The notes under the pieces are model-generated. The model had not been told where the DNA came from. It ran no database searches and saw only the letters and a program-made list of their open reading frames with translations. DNA of 18,711 bases, taken from Chlamydiota bacterium. Its GTDB lineage: Bacteria; Auribacterota; Tritonobacteria; UBA1439. A program made the position numbers and the translations under genes. The stretch is from positions 1 through 18,711 of the forward strand of contig JAAYCL010000016.1 of the NCBI GenBank assembly GCA_012729785.1. The letters are read 5' to 3'. Below, one piece after another: positions 247 to 18,593 of the stretch (position 1 is its first letter; every line of letters starts with the position of its first letter).

Positions 247-591
247 ATGGCCCAGTTGCAGCCGAAGGACAAGGTGCAGTGGCGGGCGGGCGACACCCCG
301 TCGTCGTCGCACCTGAGGACCGGGGTCATCAAGGAGGTGCTCCCCGGCGGCCTCTGTCTCGTGCGGACGAAGGTGGACGGGGAGATGGTCGTCGAGGAGA
401 TCAGGATGGCGCGCCTGAAACCCGTCCAGCCCCCGCCGGAGGCCCCGAAGAAGAAAGGCGGCGCCCGCAGGGCCGGGAAGGCCGGGAAGGCCGCCCCCGC
501 GGCGGAGAAGGCCGCCCCGAAGGCGAAGAAGGCCGCCCCGAAGGCGAAGAAGGCCCGCCGCCGGAAGAAGTCGAAGAAGAAGGCCGCCTGA
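247..591 (+). CDS. Small protein with Lys/Ala/Pro-rich basic tail
   Basis: A 114-residue protein of unknown function. The start is fixed by AAAGGAGG about six bases before the ATG. Residues 1-60 look like a compact beta-rich module: alternating hydrophobics, GVIKEVLPGG, and CLVRTKVDGE followed by VVEEIRMARLKPV. This could be a small SH3-like barrel, but I cannot assign a family. Residues 62-114 are low complexity, almost entirely Lys, Ala, Pro and Arg, with two exact AAPKAKK repeats, and resemble histone-H1-like or nucleic-acid-binding tails. The tail is encoded by exact 21-bp tandem repeats (511-552). It is followed by a strong hairpin and then the ATP-grasp gene. Nucleic-acid or nucleoid binding is inferred from charge only. 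Confidence 0.75.
   Translation: MAQLQPKDKVQWRAGDTPSSSHLRTGVIKEVLPGGLCLVRTKVDGEMVVEEIRMARLKPVQPPPEAPKKKGGARRAGKAGKAAPAAEKAAPKAKKAAPKAKKARRRKKSKKKAA
490..552 (+). repeat. Three 21-bp tandem repeats inside the basic-tail coding region
   Basis: Units at 511-531 and 532-552 are identical, and 490-510 is an imperfect third unit. A 9-bp direct repeat, GCCGGGAAG, precedes them at 472-480 and 481-489. The unit length is a multiple of three, so copy changes would lengthen or shorten the Lys/Ala tail without shifting the frame. Confidence 0.8.
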
Positions 592-614
592 CCGGTTGCG
601 CGGGCGGCGGCAGC

Positions 615-645
615 GCGCCCCCCGGTCCGGCGGACCGGGGGGCGC
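615..645 (+). terminator. Strong GC hairpin between the basic-tailed gene and the ATP-grasp gene
   Basis: A 14-bp perfect stem (615-628 with 632-645) has the three-base loop GGC. It lies 24 bases after the upstream stop codon and ends 21 bases before the ATG at 667. TCCTTGT follows it, not a real T tract, so it is only a weak candidate for intrinsic termination. It could instead be a processing or attenuation structure just upstream of the GGGGAGGA ribosome-binding site. Confidence 0.45.
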
Positions 646-666
646 TCCTTGTCCGGGGAGGAATCC

Positions 667-2193
667 ATGGCGAGGCTTCTCGAGAGTCTCGGCGCCCTGA
701 AGAAGGCGATCGCGTCGCGCGGCTGGTTCCGCGACGTGCGCCTCGTCTACCAGGGGTTCGGCCCGCTGGGGGCCTGGATGTTCAGGGAGCTCCTCCCGGT
801 CTCGCACATCGTCGCCGAGTACTACGGGGAGGAGGTGCAGACGTACCTCGAGGAAGAGGACGGCGCGACGGTCTTCTCCGCGGAGAAGGAGTCCGGCGTC
901 CGGCACAACGATTCGACCCTCTTCAACCGCTACTACTACCCCGACCGCGGGGAGGCGATCGCCGCGTCGCTGAACCGCCTCTCCGGCAGGGTCTGCTTCG
1001 TCCCGTTCGCCACGACCCCCGGCCTCGAGGAGTTCCTCTTCAGGCACGGCAGCAGGTATCACCTCCTCCAGAACTCCACCATCGTCCAGAACTATTTCGA
1101 CTACAAAGCGCGCCTCGCCTGGAGCGCGAAGGAGATCGGCATCCCGATCCCGCCCGACAGCCTCGTGACGCTCTTCGGCGCGCTCGACTATCCGCGCCTC
1201 GCGGATGCGTTCGAGTCGGGGTTCGTCATCCAGGTCCCCCTCTCGCAGGCGGGCGGGGGGACGCACTTCGCCTTCTCGCCTGACGACTTCGGCCGGATCG
1301 TCGAGGAGAACCGCGCCGCGCTCGGACCGCTCTTCGACAAGACGCAGGTGAAGGTGACCCCGTTCCTGCCCGGTCCCAGTCTCAACTGCACCGGCTGCGT
1401 CGTCAACGGCGCCGTGGCGCTCTCCCCGCCCGACATCCAGATCGTGGGCGACCCGCACTTCGTGGAGACCCCGGGGCAGTACATCGGCTCCGATTTCGCG
1501 CGCAACGACTTCGAGCCGGAGCACCGGAGACGGATCCTCGAGATCACGGCCCGCATCGGCGCCTGGATGGGGGCGCGCGGCTACCGCGGGAACTTCGGCG
1601 TGGACTTCCTCTCCACGGTGGACGGAAACAACCGCGTGAAGGATATCTTCGTGAGCGAGGTGAACGCCCGTCTCGTCGGCGAATCGCAGTATATGGCCGA
1701 CTGGCAGGCGATGGCCGGCAGCGTCCCGCTCACCTTCTTCCATCTCGCCGAGTGGATGAACCTCGACGAGATCACCCCCGCGGAGATCGCCGCCTACAAC
1801 GCCTCCCTCCCGCCGATCGAGGGCTCGGCGCTCCTCCTCTACACGCGCGAGAAGGGGACCTTCCGGGCCGCGGGGGGGATCAGCTCCGGCATCTATCGCT
1901 TCGACGGCGACCGCCTCGTCCGCCTCCGCGACGGGTTCCTCCTCTCCCAGACCAGGTCGGCGGACGAGTTCGTCATCACCAACGGGATCCCCTGGGACGG
2001 CCTCGTCCTCGGTCACCCGCGGTACGGCGACTACAACGTATTCCTTTGCTACCTCCTTACCCGGGAGAGCATCGTCCAGCCCGGCAACTGGCGGCTGGTG
2101 AACGACAGGTGGCGCAGGCGGGCGGACCTCGTCTACGCGGCGCTCGGCCTCGTCCCGTGCCCGCCGCGCCTCCTCCCCGGCGAAAAGGCCTGA
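667..2193 (+). CDS. ATP-grasp domain protein, substrate unknown
   Basis: A 508-residue protein. The ATG at 667 is chosen because GGGGAGGA precedes it at good spacing; an in-frame TTG at 649 lacks that. Residues 20-130 look like a Rossmann-type pre-ATP-grasp domain (VRLVYQGFGPLGAW). Residues about 145-365 form the ATP-grasp part: a lysine-containing strand near FDYKARL, a Gly-rich loop SQAGGGTHF (193-201), FGVDFL (310-315), and the metal-binding strand EVNARLVGES (331-340) with acidic and Asn ligands. The C-terminal 140 residues match nothing I recognise. ATP-grasp enzymes ligate a carboxylate to an amine or thiol via acyl phosphate; the substrates here are unknown. The next gene, a membrane-anchored hydrolase, follows after 47 bases in the same direction and may be cotranscribed. 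Confidence 0.85.
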   Translation: MARLLESLGALKKAIASRGWFRDVRLVYQGFGPLGAWMFRELLPVSHIVAEYYGEEVQTYLEEEDGATVFSAEKESGVRHNDSTLFNRYYYPDRGEAIAASLNRLSGRVCFVPFATTPGLEEFLFRHGSRYHLLQNSTIVQNYFDYKARLAWSAKEIGIPIPPDSLVTLFGALDYPRLADAFESGFVIQVPLSQAGGGTHFAFSPDDFGRIVEENRAALGPLFDKTQVKVTPFLPGPSLNCTGCVVNGAVALSPPDIQIVGDPHFVETPGQYIGSDFARNDFEPEHRRRILEITARIGAWMGARGYRGNFGVDFLSTVDGNNRVKDIFVSEVNARLVGESQYMADWQAMAGSVPLTFFHLAEWMNLDEITPAEIAAYNASLPPIEGSALLLYTREKGTFRAAGGISSGIYRFDGDRLVRLRDGFLLSQTRSADEFVITNGIPWDGLVLGHPRYGDYNVFLCYLLTRESIVQPGNWRLVNDRWRRRADLVYAALGLVPCPPRLLPGEKA

Positions 2194-12591: not shown

Positions 12592-13638
12592 TCAGCAGAG
12601 CTTCTGGAGCTGGTTGTAGAGGTTGACCAGCAAGGCGTCGAATTCCTCGCGCCCCTGCGTCACGCGGACGAGCATCCCGTGGCAGCGGACCCGGTCGCCC
12701 TGCCGAAGGTCGCCGCGCATCGCCCCGTCGTAGATGATGAGCGGCACCGGCGGGCGTTTCTCGCGGTCGATCACGACCTCGTCGAGCTGCACGACCGACG
12801 GCATGTAGATCGCGTGCGTATCCTCGCAGACGCGCCCGGTGGCGTAGATCGTCTCCTTGAGCACCTCGATGGTGAACCCCTTGAGCGGCACCTCGCTCCA
12901 GTCGGCGTAGACGAAGAACGGGCAGACCAGCACCCCGTGGTGGTGGAAGCGCATCGGCCAGAGCTTGCCGAACTCGATCACCTGCTTGGCGGGATCGCGG
13001 GTCACCTCGTAGATATTCCGGACCACGCGCCGGTTCTCCTCGACGGTCCCGAAGAAGACCACGTCGAAGTCCTCGTCGTTGGGGTCGTAGACGCCGTAGG
13101 CGAGCGAGCCGGTCGCCCCCATCCGCTCGATCGGGATATCGAGGATGCCGGAGACCTGCTCGGCCGCCTGCTTGATGCGCGGGTACCGCGTCATCGCCGT
13201 GCGGAGCGACCTGCGGCAGTTGAAATGGCCGATGAACTGGTCCATCCCGAACTCGAGCTCGTACTCGGCGTAGGCGGGGCGGGCCTTGGCGAGCGTCGGA
13301 TCGATCTCGCACTGGCGCTCGATCTGCGCCGGGTGCGTGATGTAGATCATCTCGTCGTTCACGAGCTTCTTCGTGATGCACTCGTACGGGCGCCCGTGGA
13401 TGCTGATCTGCCCCTGCTCGTCGGGGTGGTAGATGATCTTGCCGTAGAGCGCCCCGCGCGGGTGGCAGTACCCCTCGCAGAAGACGAGGCTGTCGTCGCG
13501 GCGCATGAAGTAGGTCGAGTCCCAGATATTGGCGTCCAACTCCTCCATCGGGGTCAGGTATTTGTCGATCGTCTTCCAGAAGCCCGGGTACGCCTTTTCC
13601 ACCTTCCTCCTCCGGTCGTCCATCCCGCTCCCGCGCAT
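12592..13638 (-). CDS. Predicted nucleotidyltransferase, paralogue 3 of 3
   Basis: A 348-residue protein. The ATG at 13638 overlaps the stop of the previous gene (TGATG), suggesting coupling. An in-frame ATG at 13623 with GGGAG close by is an alternative. An N-terminal domain has DSTYF, EGYCHP (55-60) and HGRPYE. A polymerase-beta-type nucleotidyltransferase signature follows: ATGSLAYG with Gly177-Ser178, then EDFDVVFFG with Asp190 and Asp192. Then come VIEFGKLWPMRF, VCPFFVYADW and a C-terminal barrel-like part with PLIIYDGAMRGD. All blocks align with the two upstream neighbours. The acceptor molecule is unknown. The layout recalls the archaeal predicted nucleotidyltransferases of COG1665, but this comparison is from memory. 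Confidence 0.85.
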   Translation of the reverse strand: MRGSGMDDRRRKVEKAYPGFWKTIDKYLTPMEELDANIWDSTYFMRRDDSLVFCEGYCHPRGALYGKIIYHPDEQGQISIHGRPYECITKKLVNDEMIYITHPAQIERQCEIDPTLAKARPAYAEYELEFGMDQFIGHFNCRRSLRTAMTRYPRIKQAAEQVSGILDIPIERMGATGSLAYGVYDPNDEDFDVVFFGTVEENRRVVRNIYEVTRDPAKQVIEFGKLWPMRFHHHGVLVCPFFVYADWSEVPLKGFTIEVLKETIYATGRVCEDTHAIYMPSVVQLDEVVIDREKRPPVPLIIYDGAMRGDLRQGDRVRCHGMLVRVTQGREEFDALLVNLYNQLQKLC

Positions 13639-14666
13639 CACCGCCGCACCCCCGCCGCGGCCCCGGTGGGGTCCCGGGAGATCGCGATGCCGTTGGTGAC
13701 CAGCAGCGCGCGGTACGTCTCCGCCGCGGCCCGGATCGTCACGAGCCGCGCCCGCCCCTCGAGGCGGTTTCCTTCCCGGTACTCGCCGCGCACGGAGCTG
13801 TCGTAGACGACGAGGGGAAGCGCCTCGGGCGGGGCGCCGTCGACCGACGCCCGCAGCCCGACGACGACCGGGAGGAAGATCGCGTGGCGCTCGTCCTCGA
13901 CGCGCCCGCGGAAGGCGACCTCCTCCTTGACGACCTCCATCGAGAAATCGGCGAGCGGCGCCTCCCCGGGCACGCCGTAGATGAAGAACGGGCAGATCAG
14001 CGTCCCCTCGTACCAGAAGCGCATCGGCCAGGACCGGTCGAACTCGTAGACCCGGTGCGCCGGCTCGCGAAGCCATCCGTCGATCTTCTTCACGATGCGG
14101 CGGTGCTCCTCGACGCTCGCGTGTATGGCGAGGTCGATATCCTCGTGCTCGTCGTCCATCCGCCCGTAGGCAAGCGAGCCGGTCACGCCGAGCCGCTCGG
14201 GAGGGAGTTCGAAAAAGTCGGCGAGGCGGCTGATCTTCGGCGCGAGCCACGGGTGGAGGCCCATCGCCACCTCGAGCGAGTGCCGGTGGTCGAACCAGCC
14301 GGCGCAGTCGTCGAGAGAGAAGAGGACATGGTAGTCGCCGAACGGGGGGATCCCCTCGCGGTTCCGCAGGGCGGGCTCGGCGAGGTAGTGGAGCTCGAGC
14401 TGCCGGTCGATCGGGATGAGCTCGAGGTCCTTCCCCGCGAACCTCTTGGTGGTGTTGGTGTACCGCCGCCCGAAGATCTCGAACGCCCCCTGCGGGTCGG
14501 GGTGGTTGATGAGCTTGCCGAGGAACTTGCCGGGCGGATGCCAGTAGCCCTGGGCGAAGGCGAGGCTCAGGTTCTTCCTGAGGAAATAGGTCGAGTCGAC
14601 CACGCGCTCGAACCGCTCCATCGGGAGCAGGTACCGTTCGATCGTCGACTGGAATCTGTCCTGCAT
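13638..14666 (-). CDS. Predicted nucleotidyltransferase, paralogue 2 of 3
   Basis: A 342-residue protein with the same block order as its neighbours: VDSTYFLRKN (23-32), QGYWHPPG (39-46), GRRYTNTTKR, FDHRHSL (125-131), then VTGSLAYG with Gly163-Ser164 and EDIDLAIH with Asp176 and Asp178. These are followed by VYEFDRSWPMRF, LICPFFIYG, HAIFLPVVVG and PLVVYDSSVRGEY. The catalytic GS...DxD signature is intact. The ATG follows the previous stop by 21 bases, with GGGGGA as a weak Shine-Dalgarno. Compared with paralogues 1 and 3, its YD(S/G)S and FDHR blocks differ in detail, so the three have diverged rather than being recent copies. Confidence 0.85.
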   Translation of the reverse strand: MQDRFQSTIERYLLPMERFERVVDSTYFLRKNLSLAFAQGYWHPPGKFLGKLINHPDPQGAFEIFGRRYTNTTKRFAGKDLELIPIDRQLELHYLAEPALRNREGIPPFGDYHVLFSLDDCAGWFDHRHSLEVAMGLHPWLAPKISRLADFFELPPERLGVTGSLAYGRMDDEHEDIDLAIHASVEEHRRIVKKIDGWLREPAHRVYEFDRSWPMRFWYEGTLICPFFIYGVPGEAPLADFSMEVVKEEVAFRGRVEDERHAIFLPVVVGLRASVDGAPPEALPLVVYDSSVRGEYREGNRLEGRARLVTIRAAAETYRALLVTNGIAISRDPTGAAAGVRR

Positions 14667-14687
14667 TCGGTTCGAATCCCCCGCTTC

Positions 14688-15713
14688 TCAGGCGGTCGCC
14701 CCGGGGGCCTTTTTGATCTGGGTGCTGACGGTCACCAGCAGGGCGGGGAACGCCTTGCCCCGCTCCCGCACCTTGACGAGGCGCACGCCGTCCATCGCGA
14801 GGCGGTCGCCGAGGCAGAACTCCCCGCGCAGGGAACCGTCGTAGATGATCAGCGGGAGGTCGCCGTGGGGTTCGCCGTCGATCGTCACCCGCTCGAGCGT
14901 GAGCAGCACCGGCATGTAGATGCCGTGTGTGTCGTCCTTGACGCGCCCTTCGGCGCGCACCCCCTCGCGGAGGATCTCGACGCCGAATTCACGGAGCGGC
15001 GCCTCCTCGCGGTCGAGGTATTCGAAGAACGGGCAGATCATGATGTCGCGGTGGTAGAACCGCATCGGCCAGAACTTTCCGAATTCGATCACCTTCCGCG
15101 CGGGGTCCTGCGTGAACCTCCGGATCCGCGCGATCACCTCCTCGTTCTGGGCGACCGTCCCGTAGATGCACAGATCGACGTCGTCCACCGGGTCCTCGAG
15201 CCTCCCGAACGAGAGGGAGCCGGTGACCCCGAGCCGCTCGACCGGCACCTCGAGGATCTCGCTCGCCTTCCCGACCGCCTCACGCACCTTCGGGTAGTCC
15301 TCCATCGCGAGGACGAGCGATTTCCGGTGGTCGAAGTAGCCGGTGAAGTCGCTCAGGGGGAGTCGCACGTGGTACTCGGCCCAGCAGGGGAGCGGCGCCT
15401 TCGGGTCGAGCGTCGGGTCGATCTCGAAGTGGCGCGCGAGCTGCCGGTCGTGCGGGATGAGCTCGAGCCTCCCGTCCACGACACGCTTGATCGTGGTGTC
15501 GTACCGGCGCCCGTGTATGTCCATCCATCCGTCCTTGGCGGGGAAGTAGATGATCTTGCAGTAGAGCCCGCCCTTCGGGTGGCTGTAGCCCTGCGAGAAG
15601 ACGAAACTCCCGTTTTTCCTGAAGAAGTAGCAGCAGTCACCGGGCCCCTCCCGCAGCTCCGAGATCGGGACCACGTACCGGCGTATCGTTCGATCGAAAA
15701 GGTCCTGAACCAT
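14688..15713 (-). CDS. Predicted nucleotidyltransferase, paralogue 1 of 3
   Basis: A 341-residue protein, first gene of the tandem set. Block order: CCYFFRKNGSFVFSQGYSHP (27-46), HGRRYDTTIKR, FDHRKSL (127-133), VTGSLSFG with Gly165-Ser166, and DDVDLCIYG with Asp178 and Asp180 as probable metal ligands. Then VIEFGKFWPMRF, MICPFFEYLD (225-234), HGIYMPVLLTLE and LPLIIYDGSLRGEF (286-299). The start at 15713 aligns with paralogue 2 and has GGAG ten bases upstream. An in-frame ATG at 15773 would add 20 residues and has poorer spacing. Polymerase-beta-fold enzymes transfer nucleotides to proteins, RNA or small molecules; the target is not evident. Confidence 0.85.
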   Translation of the reverse strand: MVQDLFDRTIRRYVVPISELREGPGDCCYFFRKNGSFVFSQGYSHPKGGLYCKIIYFPAKDGWMDIHGRRYDTTIKRVVDGRLELIPHDRQLARHFEIDPTLDPKAPLPCWAEYHVRLPLSDFTGYFDHRKSLVLAMEDYPKVREAVGKASEILEVPVERLGVTGSLSFGRLEDPVDDVDLCIYGTVAQNEEVIARIRRFTQDPARKVIEFGKFWPMRFYHRDIMICPFFEYLDREEAPLREFGVEILREGVRAEGRVKDDTHGIYMPVLLTLERVTIDGEPHGDLPLIIYDGSLRGEFCLGDRLAMDGVRLVKVRERGKAFPALLVTVSTQIKKAPGATA

Positions 15714-15749
15714 CGTTGCACACTCCGCTCCGTCCCGAGGGTCGATAAT

Positions 15750-15784
15750 AAAAAGGCCCCATCGTGGGTGCATTGTCCCCGATG
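15750..15784 (-). promoter_or_regulatory. Possible attenuator in the leader of the nucleotidyltransferase set
   Basis: On the minus strand, CATCGGGG pairs with CCC-A-CGATG (15784-15760) as an 8-bp stem with one bulge and a 9-base loop. GGGGCC and then TTTTT (15754-15750) follow. The structure lies at the very 5' end of the predicted transcript. The T tract is six bases away from the stem, so termination would be weak. Confidence 0.3.
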
Positions 15785-16007: not shown

Positions 16008-16208
16008 GTGCGGCAACTGCACTTCGAGAGAGATTCCATCGGATGGGACGGGGAGTTCGAGAGGATGATGCGCGGGATGTTCGCCGTTCCGGCTCCGCCG
16101 GGGGCGTTTTCCCTTTTACACCGGCGCGCCGCGTGGTACAATCTGTTCGGATCTTTGAAGACGGTGAGGGAAAGCGGTGAGAAGCCGCTGCTGCCCCCGC
16201 AACTGTAA
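16008..16208 (+). CDS. Possible 66-residue leader ORF or gene remnant
   Basis: A GTG follows AAAGGAGG by nine bases and opens a frame that reads RQLHFERDSIGWDGEFERMM, then RGMFAVPAPP and more, ending at a TAA inside the conserved core of the cobalamin riboswitch. The first 30 residues look protein-like. The later part overlaps the promoter at 16115-16142 and the riboswitch, whose own constraints explain that sequence. It may be the start of a decayed gene, a small gene, or chance. No family is recognised. Confidence 0.2.
   Translation: MRQLHFERDSIGWDGEFERMMRGMFAVPAPPGAFSLLHRRAAWYNLFGSLKTVRESGEKPLLPPQL
16115..16142 (+). promoter_or_regulatory. Promoter of the riboswitch-controlled transcript
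   Basis: TTTACA (16115-16120) and TACAAT (16137-16142) have a 16-base spacer. The predicted start at about 16149 falls exactly at the 5' edge of the riboswitch aptamer, which supports both calls. Confidence 0.7.
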
Positions 16209-16345
16209 GTGGCGATGCAAAGAAGCGCCTGTCACTGGCGCGGTGGATCGGCAGGGTCGACGGTGCAATGGAGCGACCCCGCCGGTTGCCGCCTCGGGAA
16301 GGCAGGCGCGCGACGGTGCCACGAGCCAGGAGACCTCTTGGGACG
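16149..16345 (+). ncRNA. Cobalamin riboswitch
   Basis: The aptamer core shows the conserved order of B12 riboswitches: AAGCGGTGAGAAGCCGCTGC (16171-16190), CCCCGCAACTGTAAG (16195-16209), CACTGGCG in the P6 extension arm (16233-16240), GGGAAGGC (16296-16303) and the terminal B12-box-like GAGCCAGGAGACCT (16323-16336). Known riboswitches of this class bind adenosylcobalamin or related cobalamins and shut off expression of uptake, synthesis or B12-independent enzymes. A small hairpin (CTTCTT with AAGAAG, 16348-16366) and an intrinsic terminator follow, which points to control by transcription termination. The exact 3' border of the aptamer is uncertain by about ten bases. Confidence 0.9.
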
Positions 16346-16382
16346 ACTTCTTCGGGCGGAAGAAGGCCATGGGCGTGCCACG

Positions 16383-16415
16383 GCCGATACCCCTCCTGGG
16401 GGAGTCGGCTTTTTT
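16383..16415 (+). terminator. Riboswitch expression-platform terminator
   Basis: GCCGA pairs with TCGGC and CCCC with GGGG around a short loop (16383-16409), with a 2x2 internal mismatch. Six T residues follow (16410-16415). It lies between the aptamer and the ATG at 16449, as expected for a switch that terminates transcription when cobalamin is bound. Confidence 0.8.
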
Positions 16416-16448
16416 CGTGCCGCGGGGAGGCGCGAAAAGGAGGAACGG

Positions 16449-17810
16449 ATGAGATTCACCATCTGCGTCACGGCGGCGCTGGCGGTTGCGTGCGTTGCGG
16501 GAGCGGCGCGCGGCGAGGGGCCGCTCTCGGTGTACGCGAACGCGTCGCTCGTGCAGAACTTCGCGGGCGGCTTCGACTACCTTCCGAACGGGGACCTGAT
16601 CGGGATGTACAGCGACCCCGCCATGGTGAAAAACGCCTATCTCGGCATCATCGACGCGAACGGGGACGGGGATCCGGCTGTGGTGAAGAAGGTGCACGCG
16701 TTCAAGGAGCCCACCTTCGGCATCGCGGTGGACGTGAGCCCCGACGGCATGAGTGTGCTGTTCGGGGAGAGCTCCTATGACCCGGTGACCACGCAGTCCA
16801 GGTATGCGCTCTACCACGGACCCGTGAACGGACAGACATTTCCGGTGATCGACCCGGCGGAGGGAAGCCTCGAGGGGGCGTACGACATCGTCTTCATCGA
16901 CGCCACGCGCTGCTACATCAGCGCGAACCCCGGCGACTTTTCCGCGACGACAAACAAGATATGGCGGCTCGACCTTGAGACGAAGAGCGCCACCGAAGTC
17001 GTCTCGATCGAGGGGACCTATTCCGGGCCGATCGACGTGGACAAGGAGGGGAATCTGTACTATGTCAGGGGCAAGGCGAACTACCCGCCCCGGCGGGGGG
17101 ACTTCACGCTCATGAAGTTCGCCGCCGCCGCCCTCGACGAGGCCGCCGCGGGCGATGCCGACCAGAAGCTCGACGCCGGCGATGCAACGGTCGTCGCCGA
17201 AAACCTCGACGGGGGGCAGGATGTGGCGTGGCATCGGTCGGGGGCCGTCTTTGTCTCCGACGCGAACAACCGCGCCGTGTACGAGGTCGCGCCGGACGGA
17301 ACCGCCTCCAGGTACGCCGAGGCCCCGGGCAGGTCGGGAGAGGGATTCTGGTTCCTCGCGATCCGCAACCCCGCCTCTTCCCGGTCCGCGGAGGTGCCCG
17401 CGCGGGACGAGATCGCCGCGTCCTGGCAGCCGATCTTCGGCACGGGCGAGCCCGACGTGATCCGGCTATCCCCGCAGGTGTATGTGGGCGAGCGGCTGCT
17501 CCTCACCGCCGCCGTCGACATCCCCGGGCCGGTCTGGATCCCGTTCGACGCCTACGTGGTGCTCTCTGGCCCCGGCGGGATCTTCTATTCGGCGTTGCCG
17601 GGCGGCGGGGTGGGGGAGGGGATCCGGGCGTACGCCGAGGGGCTCCCCGGTCTCGCGGAGTCGTTCCTCGGCCGGATCCTCGACCTGCCGGTGCCCGACG
17701 GAACGCCGAAGGGCCCGTGGACTGTCTATGCGGGGTTGATGCCGGCGGGGCGGGCGCCGTCGCCGCAGGACGCCCTCGCCCTGGACACGGTCGTGCTCAC
17801 GGTCCGCTGA
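16449..17810 (+). CDS. Exported beta-propeller protein under B12 riboswitch control
   Basis: A 453-residue protein. The ATG has AAAAGGAGG six bases upstream. Residues 1-20 are a signal sequence. Cys15 in LAVAC satisfies a loose lipobox, while AGA (17-19) would suit signal peptidase I, so the anchor is undecided. Residues about 30-335 look like a beta-propeller of the NHL/SMP-30 type: repeated units such as FDYLPNGDLIGMY, IAVDVSPDGMSVLFGES, PIDVDKEGNLYYVRG and DVAWHRSGAVFVSDANNRAVYEV. DANGDGD (69-75) and DADQKLDAGD (236-245) resemble calcium-binding loops. Residues 340-453 form a second beta-sandwich-like domain. Riboswitch control suggests a role in cobalamin acquisition, analogous to the propeller lipoprotein BtuG of Bacteroides. 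That is inference; no sequence match to BtuG is claimed. Confidence 0.85.
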   Translation: MRFTICVTAALAVACVAGAARGEGPLSVYANASLVQNFAGGFDYLPNGDLIGMYSDPAMVKNAYLGIIDANGDGDPAVVKKVHAFKEPTFGIAVDVSPDGMSVLFGESSYDPVTTQSRYALYHGPVNGQTFPVIDPAEGSLEGAYDIVFIDATRCYISANPGDFSATTNKIWRLDLETKSATEVVSIEGTYSGPIDVDKEGNLYYVRGKANYPPRRGDFTLMKFAAAALDEAAAGDADQKLDAGDATVVAENLDGGQDVAWHRSGAVFVSDANNRAVYEVAPDGTASRYAEAPGRSGEGFWFLAIRNPASSRSAEVPARDEIAASWQPIFGTGEPDVIRLSPQVYVGERLLLTAAVDIPGPVWIPFDAYVVLSGPGGIFYSALPGGGVGEGIRAYAEGLPGLAESFLGRILDLPVPDGTPKGPWTVYAGLMPAGRAPSPQDALALDTVVLTVR

Positions 17811-17829
17811 CGCCCAAAGTTATCCACAG

Positions 17830-17870
17830 CCCCAGGGCACACTTAAGTGTGCCCTGGGGGGGGATTTTTC
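17830..17870 (+). terminator. Perfect 30-bp palindrome, terminator of the propeller gene
   Basis: CCCCAGGGCACACTT (17830-17844) is followed directly by its exact reverse complement (17845-17859), then GGGG and ATTTTT (17860-17869). It lies 20 bases after the stop codon and is convergent with the NYN-domain gene. Its stem would serve both strands, but only the plus strand has a T tract. Confidence 0.65.
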
Positions 17871-18419: not shown

Positions 18420-18593
18420 CCCGTTCCCGAAGAGCGTGCGCGGTTTCCGGTTGGCCGCGCCGCGGACACGGCGGCGTGGCGCCGATATCTTGCGTCTCAG
18501 GGGCGAAATCCACTACACTGTGTCTTGTGCGTGGCACGGTAACCTCTCCTTTCTTTCTTGGTCGATTGAACCGGAGAGGATACCTTTTTCGGC

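Follow-up and report, generated by a model that had tools for sequence, protein, structure and literature searches.

Why should a cobalamin riboswitch stand in front of a lone gene for an exported beta-propeller protein? The locus that raises this question lies in a stretch of 18,711 nucleotides (the window) from an uncultured bacterium. The original prediction, made from the sequence alone, described a stand-alone unit of promoter, cobalamin aptamer, six-T terminator, Shine-Dalgarno sequence, one secreted propeller gene and closing terminator without any btu, cbi or cob gene, and suggested that the product, which carries an extra C-terminal domain, is an independently evolved BtuG-like capture protein.

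The regulatory part of this description held, all the named elements being present (Table 1). The cobalamin riboswitch was the sole RNA family matched in the window by cmscan, and the covariance model was aligned over positions 1-189 with a score well above the cut-off of 31.5 bits (E 3.2e-17). The promoter-like site was the one sigma-70-like pattern found (0.1 expected). An expression platform is present between aptamer and start codon and consists of a hairpin, with a similar CTTCTTCGGGG hairpin 3' of the aptamer at sibling loci, followed by a six-T terminator that is part of the minimum-energy (MFE) fold of 16340-16425 and was overlooked by a strict terminator scanner owing to its imperfect stem (a mismatch). 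Wherever the spacer of another riboswitch-led propeller locus was inspected, the order aptamer, hairpin, terminator and start codon recurred; the exception is genome G026, where a simple scan gave no clear terminator. Riboswitch and terminator are shown by computation, and the direction of regulation is inferred, without a switching experiment: since terminator-type cobalamin riboswitches are OFF switches, the propeller would be made under B12 scarcity. The propeller gene is monocistronic, the next gene (encoding a YacP-like NYN protein) being convergent on the other strand, and no btu, cbi or cob gene was recognised in the window, where not all ORFs were scanned against a family library; within this limit, their absence was also predicted correctly. 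As side observations, a 12-mer (CGACCAAGAAAG) flanks the unit in inverted orientation, and three tandem paralogues of 330-360 aa lie elsewhere in the window, two of them with a weak match to a nucleotidyltransferase domain.

Table 1. Coordinates of the features discussed. Positions without a prefix refer to the window; G, C and L denote genomes, contigs and loci.
Feature	Position	Strand	Basis or remark
Promoter-like site, TTTACA-16 nt-TACAAT, TG extended -10	16115..16142	+	consensus match only
Cobalamin riboswitch aptamer RF00174, full length	16137..16351	+	75.1 bits
Hairpin directly 3' of aptamer, CTTCTTC-GGGCG-GAAGAAG	16347..16365	+	fold and sibling comparison
Intrinsic terminator of expression platform, GGCCGAU...GUCGGCU and T6	16382..16415	+	fold and sibling loci
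Shine-Dalgarno sequence AAGGAGG	16437..16443	+	sequence
Exported propeller protein P0001, 453 aa (ATG 16449, stop 17808-17810)	16449..17810	+	ORF, family scans
Sec-type signal peptide, residues ~1-22	16449..16514	+	sequence; AF2 helix 2-20
NHL/SMP-30-like propeller, residues ~28-343	16530..17477	+	AlphaFold2 model, structural matches, conserved motifs
C-terminal domain, ~105 aa	17481..17807	+	common to many other exported proteins of the window's family (G000-G005)
Closing intrinsic terminator, 13-bp	17830..17869 (17830-17859 for the 13-bp terminator)	+	terminator scan
Flanking 12-mer	15983	+	inverted copy at 18553 (-)
Three tandem paralogues	12592-15773	-	
Riboswitch-led propeller loci	window; G000 C13; G001 C152; G003 C8; G004 C92		
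Riboswitch-led propeller locus	G026 C254		115 bits
Riboswitch-led propeller locus	G031 C86		46 bits
Riboswitch-led propeller locus	G249 C75		109.2 bits
Riboswitch-led propeller locus	G013 C1		RF01482 only
Tandem propeller paralogues of G000	C13:1902-2993 and 346-1689		
Prepilin-like H-X9-DG protein	L009:229-978 (G026)		
Prepilin-like H-X9-DG protein	L104:4347-5096 (G249)		
Prepilin-like H-X9-DG protein	L109:6867-7667 (G386)		
LIC_13355-like exported domain, ~200 aa	L035:3470-4579; L036:7439-8152; L104:6083-6922; L109:8806-9717		
PQQ-type propeller	L036:10414-11967		
BMP-family substrate-binding protein, PF02608	L056:1501-2931 (G031 C257)		

The product, P0001, belongs to no family in Pfam or NCBIfam. 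Its export signal and propeller fold are shown computationally, so that the claim of one secreted propeller gene held as well: a single coding sequence combines a signal peptide, in which no canonical lipobox was recognised by eye, with a propeller that AlphaFold2 modelled confidently over most of its length (pLDDT 74-97). VIA-align superposed this propeller on six-bladed NHL/SMP-30 structures (Z 23-26, rmsd 2.3-3.5, about 240-280 residues), and the six-blade assignment derives from this superposition, whose top matches span residues 28-342; blades were not counted from coordinates. The motifs GGxD, GES, DxxF, SANP and SGPxxxD are conserved across the family, and invariant residues (in GGxD, GES, SANP and SGPxxxD) occupy equivalent blade loops, without surface mapping. 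The propeller is acidic (pI 4.0-4.4 in ten members), which is only weak evidence for B12 binding. Acidity is common among exported proteins, and an NHL/SMP-30 fold does not fix the ligand, the class including enzymes, adhesins and regulators.

Such a fold could also belong to an extracellular SMP-30/DFPase-type hydrolase or lactonase-like enzyme acting on cobamides ahead of their uptake, either to free or to remodel them. The best structural matches include DFPase, Drp35, lactonases and paraoxonase (Z about 23-25), and the propeller of genome G004 is co-oriented with a gene of the DUF71-B12 type, for which a role in cobamide remodelling has been proposed (PMC3541065). However, the best PDB matches at the level of sequence, obtained with a nine-member profile and at the single-blade level, are the non-enzymatic NHL propellers PknD, TRIM71 and the designed Pizza, and no Pfam SGL call above cut-off was obtained. 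We consider the enzyme reading unlikely.

The extra C-terminal domain is present as predicted, but it is a general module carried by exported proteins throughout this family: ten or more additional copies occur in the window genome, and family members have many. Because it is so general, we infer that it more probably serves attachment or sorting than forms part of a B12 site. In relatives it is replaced by other endings, namely PEP-CTERM (G249 and G386) or repeat modules (G031 and G013), which we infer to be lineage-specific means of surface attachment; the surface location is itself inferred, without localisation experiments. As an observation in its own right, the domain may be a sorting or anchoring domain absent from Pfam. 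It also occurs in a PQQ-type propeller protein whose gene is divergent from the riboswitch operon on contig C15; that the C15 riboswitch controls this gene was considered and rejected, the strand showing that the opposite operon (an ECF operon) is the one driven.

Could the riboswitch lie beside an unrelated gene by chance? Only the view of a single locus supports this. A search by protein similarity alone returned eleven relatives of the propeller, at ten loci in eight genomes, and a cobalamin-clan riboswitch lies immediately upstream at nine of the ten loci, one of which (G013) falls below the Rfam cut-off, being matched by the sister model RF01482 only (38.1 bits, sub-threshold, E 8e-5). 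The window genome (G000) has four cobalamin riboswitches in 2.59 Mb, the window's included, which gives any single gene a probability of about 4e-4 of lying no more than 500 nt downstream of one on its own strand, so that the observed pattern is far beyond chance. The two relatives in a second phylum (G249 and G386) were, moreover, found by protein profile alone, and chance placement is all but excluded. The true spread of the family is under-sampled by these eleven relatives; a pattern scan of 85,000 genomes with a narrower family alignment found three loci only, all in genomes already sampled. Gene calls in the GC-rich loci rest on ORF reading and family scans, without a gene finder.

The linkage extends to B12 genes, as shown by computation. 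G249, which comes from another phylum and serves as an out-of-sample test of the link between riboswitch and propeller, passed it: its only two riboswitches both flank the propeller locus, one leading btuF-btuC-btuD and the other, which follows, leading an operon of a LIC13355-like gene, the propeller gene (with PEP-CTERM) and a pilin gene. In G386, of the same phylum, a 103.5-bit riboswitch leads the cluster cobO-exbB-exbD-tonB-btuC-btuD-cobU-cobT-cobS-FAD oxidase-btuB-btuF-pilin-propeller-LIC13355-like, and a faint second match (23.8 bits, below cut-off) lies right before its last three genes. This is the sole relative with a btuB (a btuB-like receptor) near the propeller, and it is a distant one (E 6e-15, 190 aligned columns). 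In G004, a DUF71 gene (PF01902, 6e-44) follows the propeller gene after 38 nt. The DUF71-B12 subgroup is marked by ENGE(F/Y)H, a Glu-to-His change relative to the EGGE/D-X-E of diphthamide ligases (PMC3541065), and the G004 protein has ELGEYH, a motif of the B12-salvage type with the diagnostic His present and N replaced by L. The expectation that homologues share the riboswitch or B12 neighbours was thus met, the tenth locus lying in a B12 cluster.

A B12-repressed gene with a role outside B12 uptake, such as one for a surface protein of stress or biofilm growth needed when B12 runs short, would also be compatible with a window propeller that stands alone, and riboswitches of this class are known to control B12-independent substitutes too. 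This reading nevertheless fails to predict the transport and salvage neighbours in G249, G386 and G004, and we regard it as very unlikely. The conserved linkage to riboswitches and B12 genes instead leads us to place the propeller gene, with high confidence, in a B12 acquisition regulon.

The unit is stand-alone at the window locus only and, within its genome, belongs to a regulon of four riboswitches. The C13 riboswitch leads two tandem propeller paralogues, which brings the propeller copies of G000 to three, and another riboswitch precedes an exported LIC13355-like protein immediately upstream of this pair. The C15 riboswitch leads an operon encoding a He_PIG/LIC13355-like protein, DUF4430 (a domain of the transcobalamin C-terminal region; PMC4350170), EcfT (CbiQ family), a fused EcfA and EcfS. 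A matching operon occurs in G004, and the riboswitch-He_PIG start or parts of the operon in G003 and G001; as the G001 ORF after the riboswitch (C358) runs into trypsin-like sequence, a probable assembly chimera, only its He_PIG part was used. In G005, only about 260 nt separate a riboswitch from the contig end, and the controlled gene is beyond reach. CbiC and CobS were not found in the seven propeller genomes of the first phylum, an absence shown computationally, control genomes having given matches; the same seven have 8-30 B12-binding domains each, and no strong BtuC-type permease was found in the window's genus and family (G000 gave a weak match only, 28 bits). Taken together, these traits give the first-phylum bacteria the likely appearance of obligate cobamide scavengers. 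The one TonB receptor match of the window genome is on C35, a contig without cobalamin riboswitch, and was not counted as evidence.

Two kinds of gene recur beside the propeller. A LIC13355-like domain adjoins it in G249, G386, G031 and G013. This neighbour matches NF033170, the LIC_13355 family lipoprotein of Leptospira (PMC11891782), weakly and under the curated cut-off, and the likeness concerns the neighbour, not the propeller. Its AlphaFold model is of low confidence (mean pLDDT 56) and the best Foldseek matches, many of them discoidin-like, are weak (E 0.02 or worse), for which reasons we claim no fold; no link to the DUF4465 jellyrolls was found with this low-confidence model, and none is excluded. 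We also observed the domain in cobalamin-riboswitch units, sometimes on its own and sometimes as the last part of a He_PIG protein, and it is a possible B12-binding partner, without binding data. The second neighbour, an H-X9-DG pilin, adjoins the propeller in three genomes of two phyla (G026, G249 and G386); why a pilin should sit in a B12 operon is unexplained by the present data.

These neighbours leave room for a less likely reading, in which the propeller is a member of the B12 regulon that binds no cobamide and acts as a structural or docking partner (scaffold or lid), with the LIC13355-like protein as the binder and the pilin, PEP-CTERM and other modules positioning the complex. The recurrence of both genes beside the propeller speaks for this. 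Against it, no LIC13355-like gene was recognised beside the riboswitch-controlled propellers of the window, G001 and G003, the three copies in G000 exceed the need for a single scaffold, and the invariant residues at equivalent blade loops fit a shared ligand site. We therefore lean, without great confidence, towards direct cobamide binding and extracellular capture by the propeller itself, which is inferred, there being no binding data.

How does such a protein compare with known systems? BtuG, a seven-bladed propeller lipoprotein that captures B12 at the Bacteroides surface (PMC6143338; PDB 3DSM), binds it at the central cavity of a negatively charged face (BtuG2; PMC6143338, PMC10404256). 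Akin to BtuG, the window protein is an acidic exported beta-propeller in the cobalamin riboswitch regulon of B12 scavengers, with btuB and btuFCD nearby in G386. As opposed to BtuG, which is lipidated, has btuB next door and is reported in Bacteroidetes only, the window family matches six-bladed structures, has no clear lipobox, lacks btuB adjacency in the window and occurs in uncultured bacteria of two phyla. The nine-member profile retrieved no BtuG chain among all PDB sequences at E<=1; BtuG chains were also missing from the 50 listed structural matches, an absence that is not probative. Independent evolution of a BtuG-like protein, as originally predicted, fits these results in the absence of binding data. 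BtuH, BtuJ and DUF4465 proteins are likewise accessory exported B12-binding lipoproteins of riboswitch-controlled B12 loci (PMC8941943, PMC12751083, PMC13398666), but BtuJ/DUF4465 have an augmented beta-jellyroll fold and P0001 has no DUF4465 match (Pfam, E<=1). The NHL-repeat propellers (PknD sensor domain, TRIM71) share fold and blade-level sequence similarity with P0001; overall identity is only about 13%, however, and none is to our knowledge involved with cobamides.

In the capture reading that we prefer, low cell B12 would leave the aptamer unoccupied, the terminator would not form, and the exported six-bladed propeller would be made. Held on or outside the cell surface by its lineage-specific C-terminal module, it would capture scarce cobamides, or hold them jointly with the LIC13355-like partner, and the cobamide would be handed to a transporter encoded elsewhere in the regulon (ECF here, BtuB/BtuFCD in relatives), a hand-over that is likewise inferred. 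Against capture stand the lack of direct binding data, a TonB receptor of the window genome that is off the riboswitch contigs, and the distance of the G386 relative. We judge it likely that the window propeller has a BtuG-like role (inferred), represents a separate propeller family by structure and lineage, and has two recurrent partners of unknown function. A bolder reading, which we consider somewhat less likely than not, is that propeller, LIC13355-like protein and H-X9-DG pseudopilin form a second, non-BtuG class of extracellular B12 capture, which two or more phyla of uncultured bacteria would use to feed either an ECF transporter or BtuB-BtuFCD, with anchoring through exosortase or other lineage-specific C-terminal modules.

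The open-access literature searched (most subscription journals lay outside the search) contained no paper joining a cobalamin riboswitch with a beta-propeller, and none joining PEP-CTERM with vitamin B12 and a riboswitch; the relevant papers from other searches concerned Bacteroides BtuG, BtuH and DUF4465 only. Propeller-based, high-affinity surface capture of B12 has so far been described for Bacteroidetes, and a second propeller family that shares this regulatory and genomic signature in unrelated, uncultured B12 auxotrophs, if confirmed, would imply at least two separate origins of cobamide capture outside the cell. A so far nameless family of exported proteins gains a testable function, with the LIC13355-like protein and the pseudopilin as two further candidate parts, and the question arises of how B12 passes the outer layers of a cell that imports it via an ECF transporter. 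As a minor observation on import, a cobalamin riboswitch in G031 (C257) precedes a BMP-family ABC substrate-binding protein, a candidate further cobamide importer.
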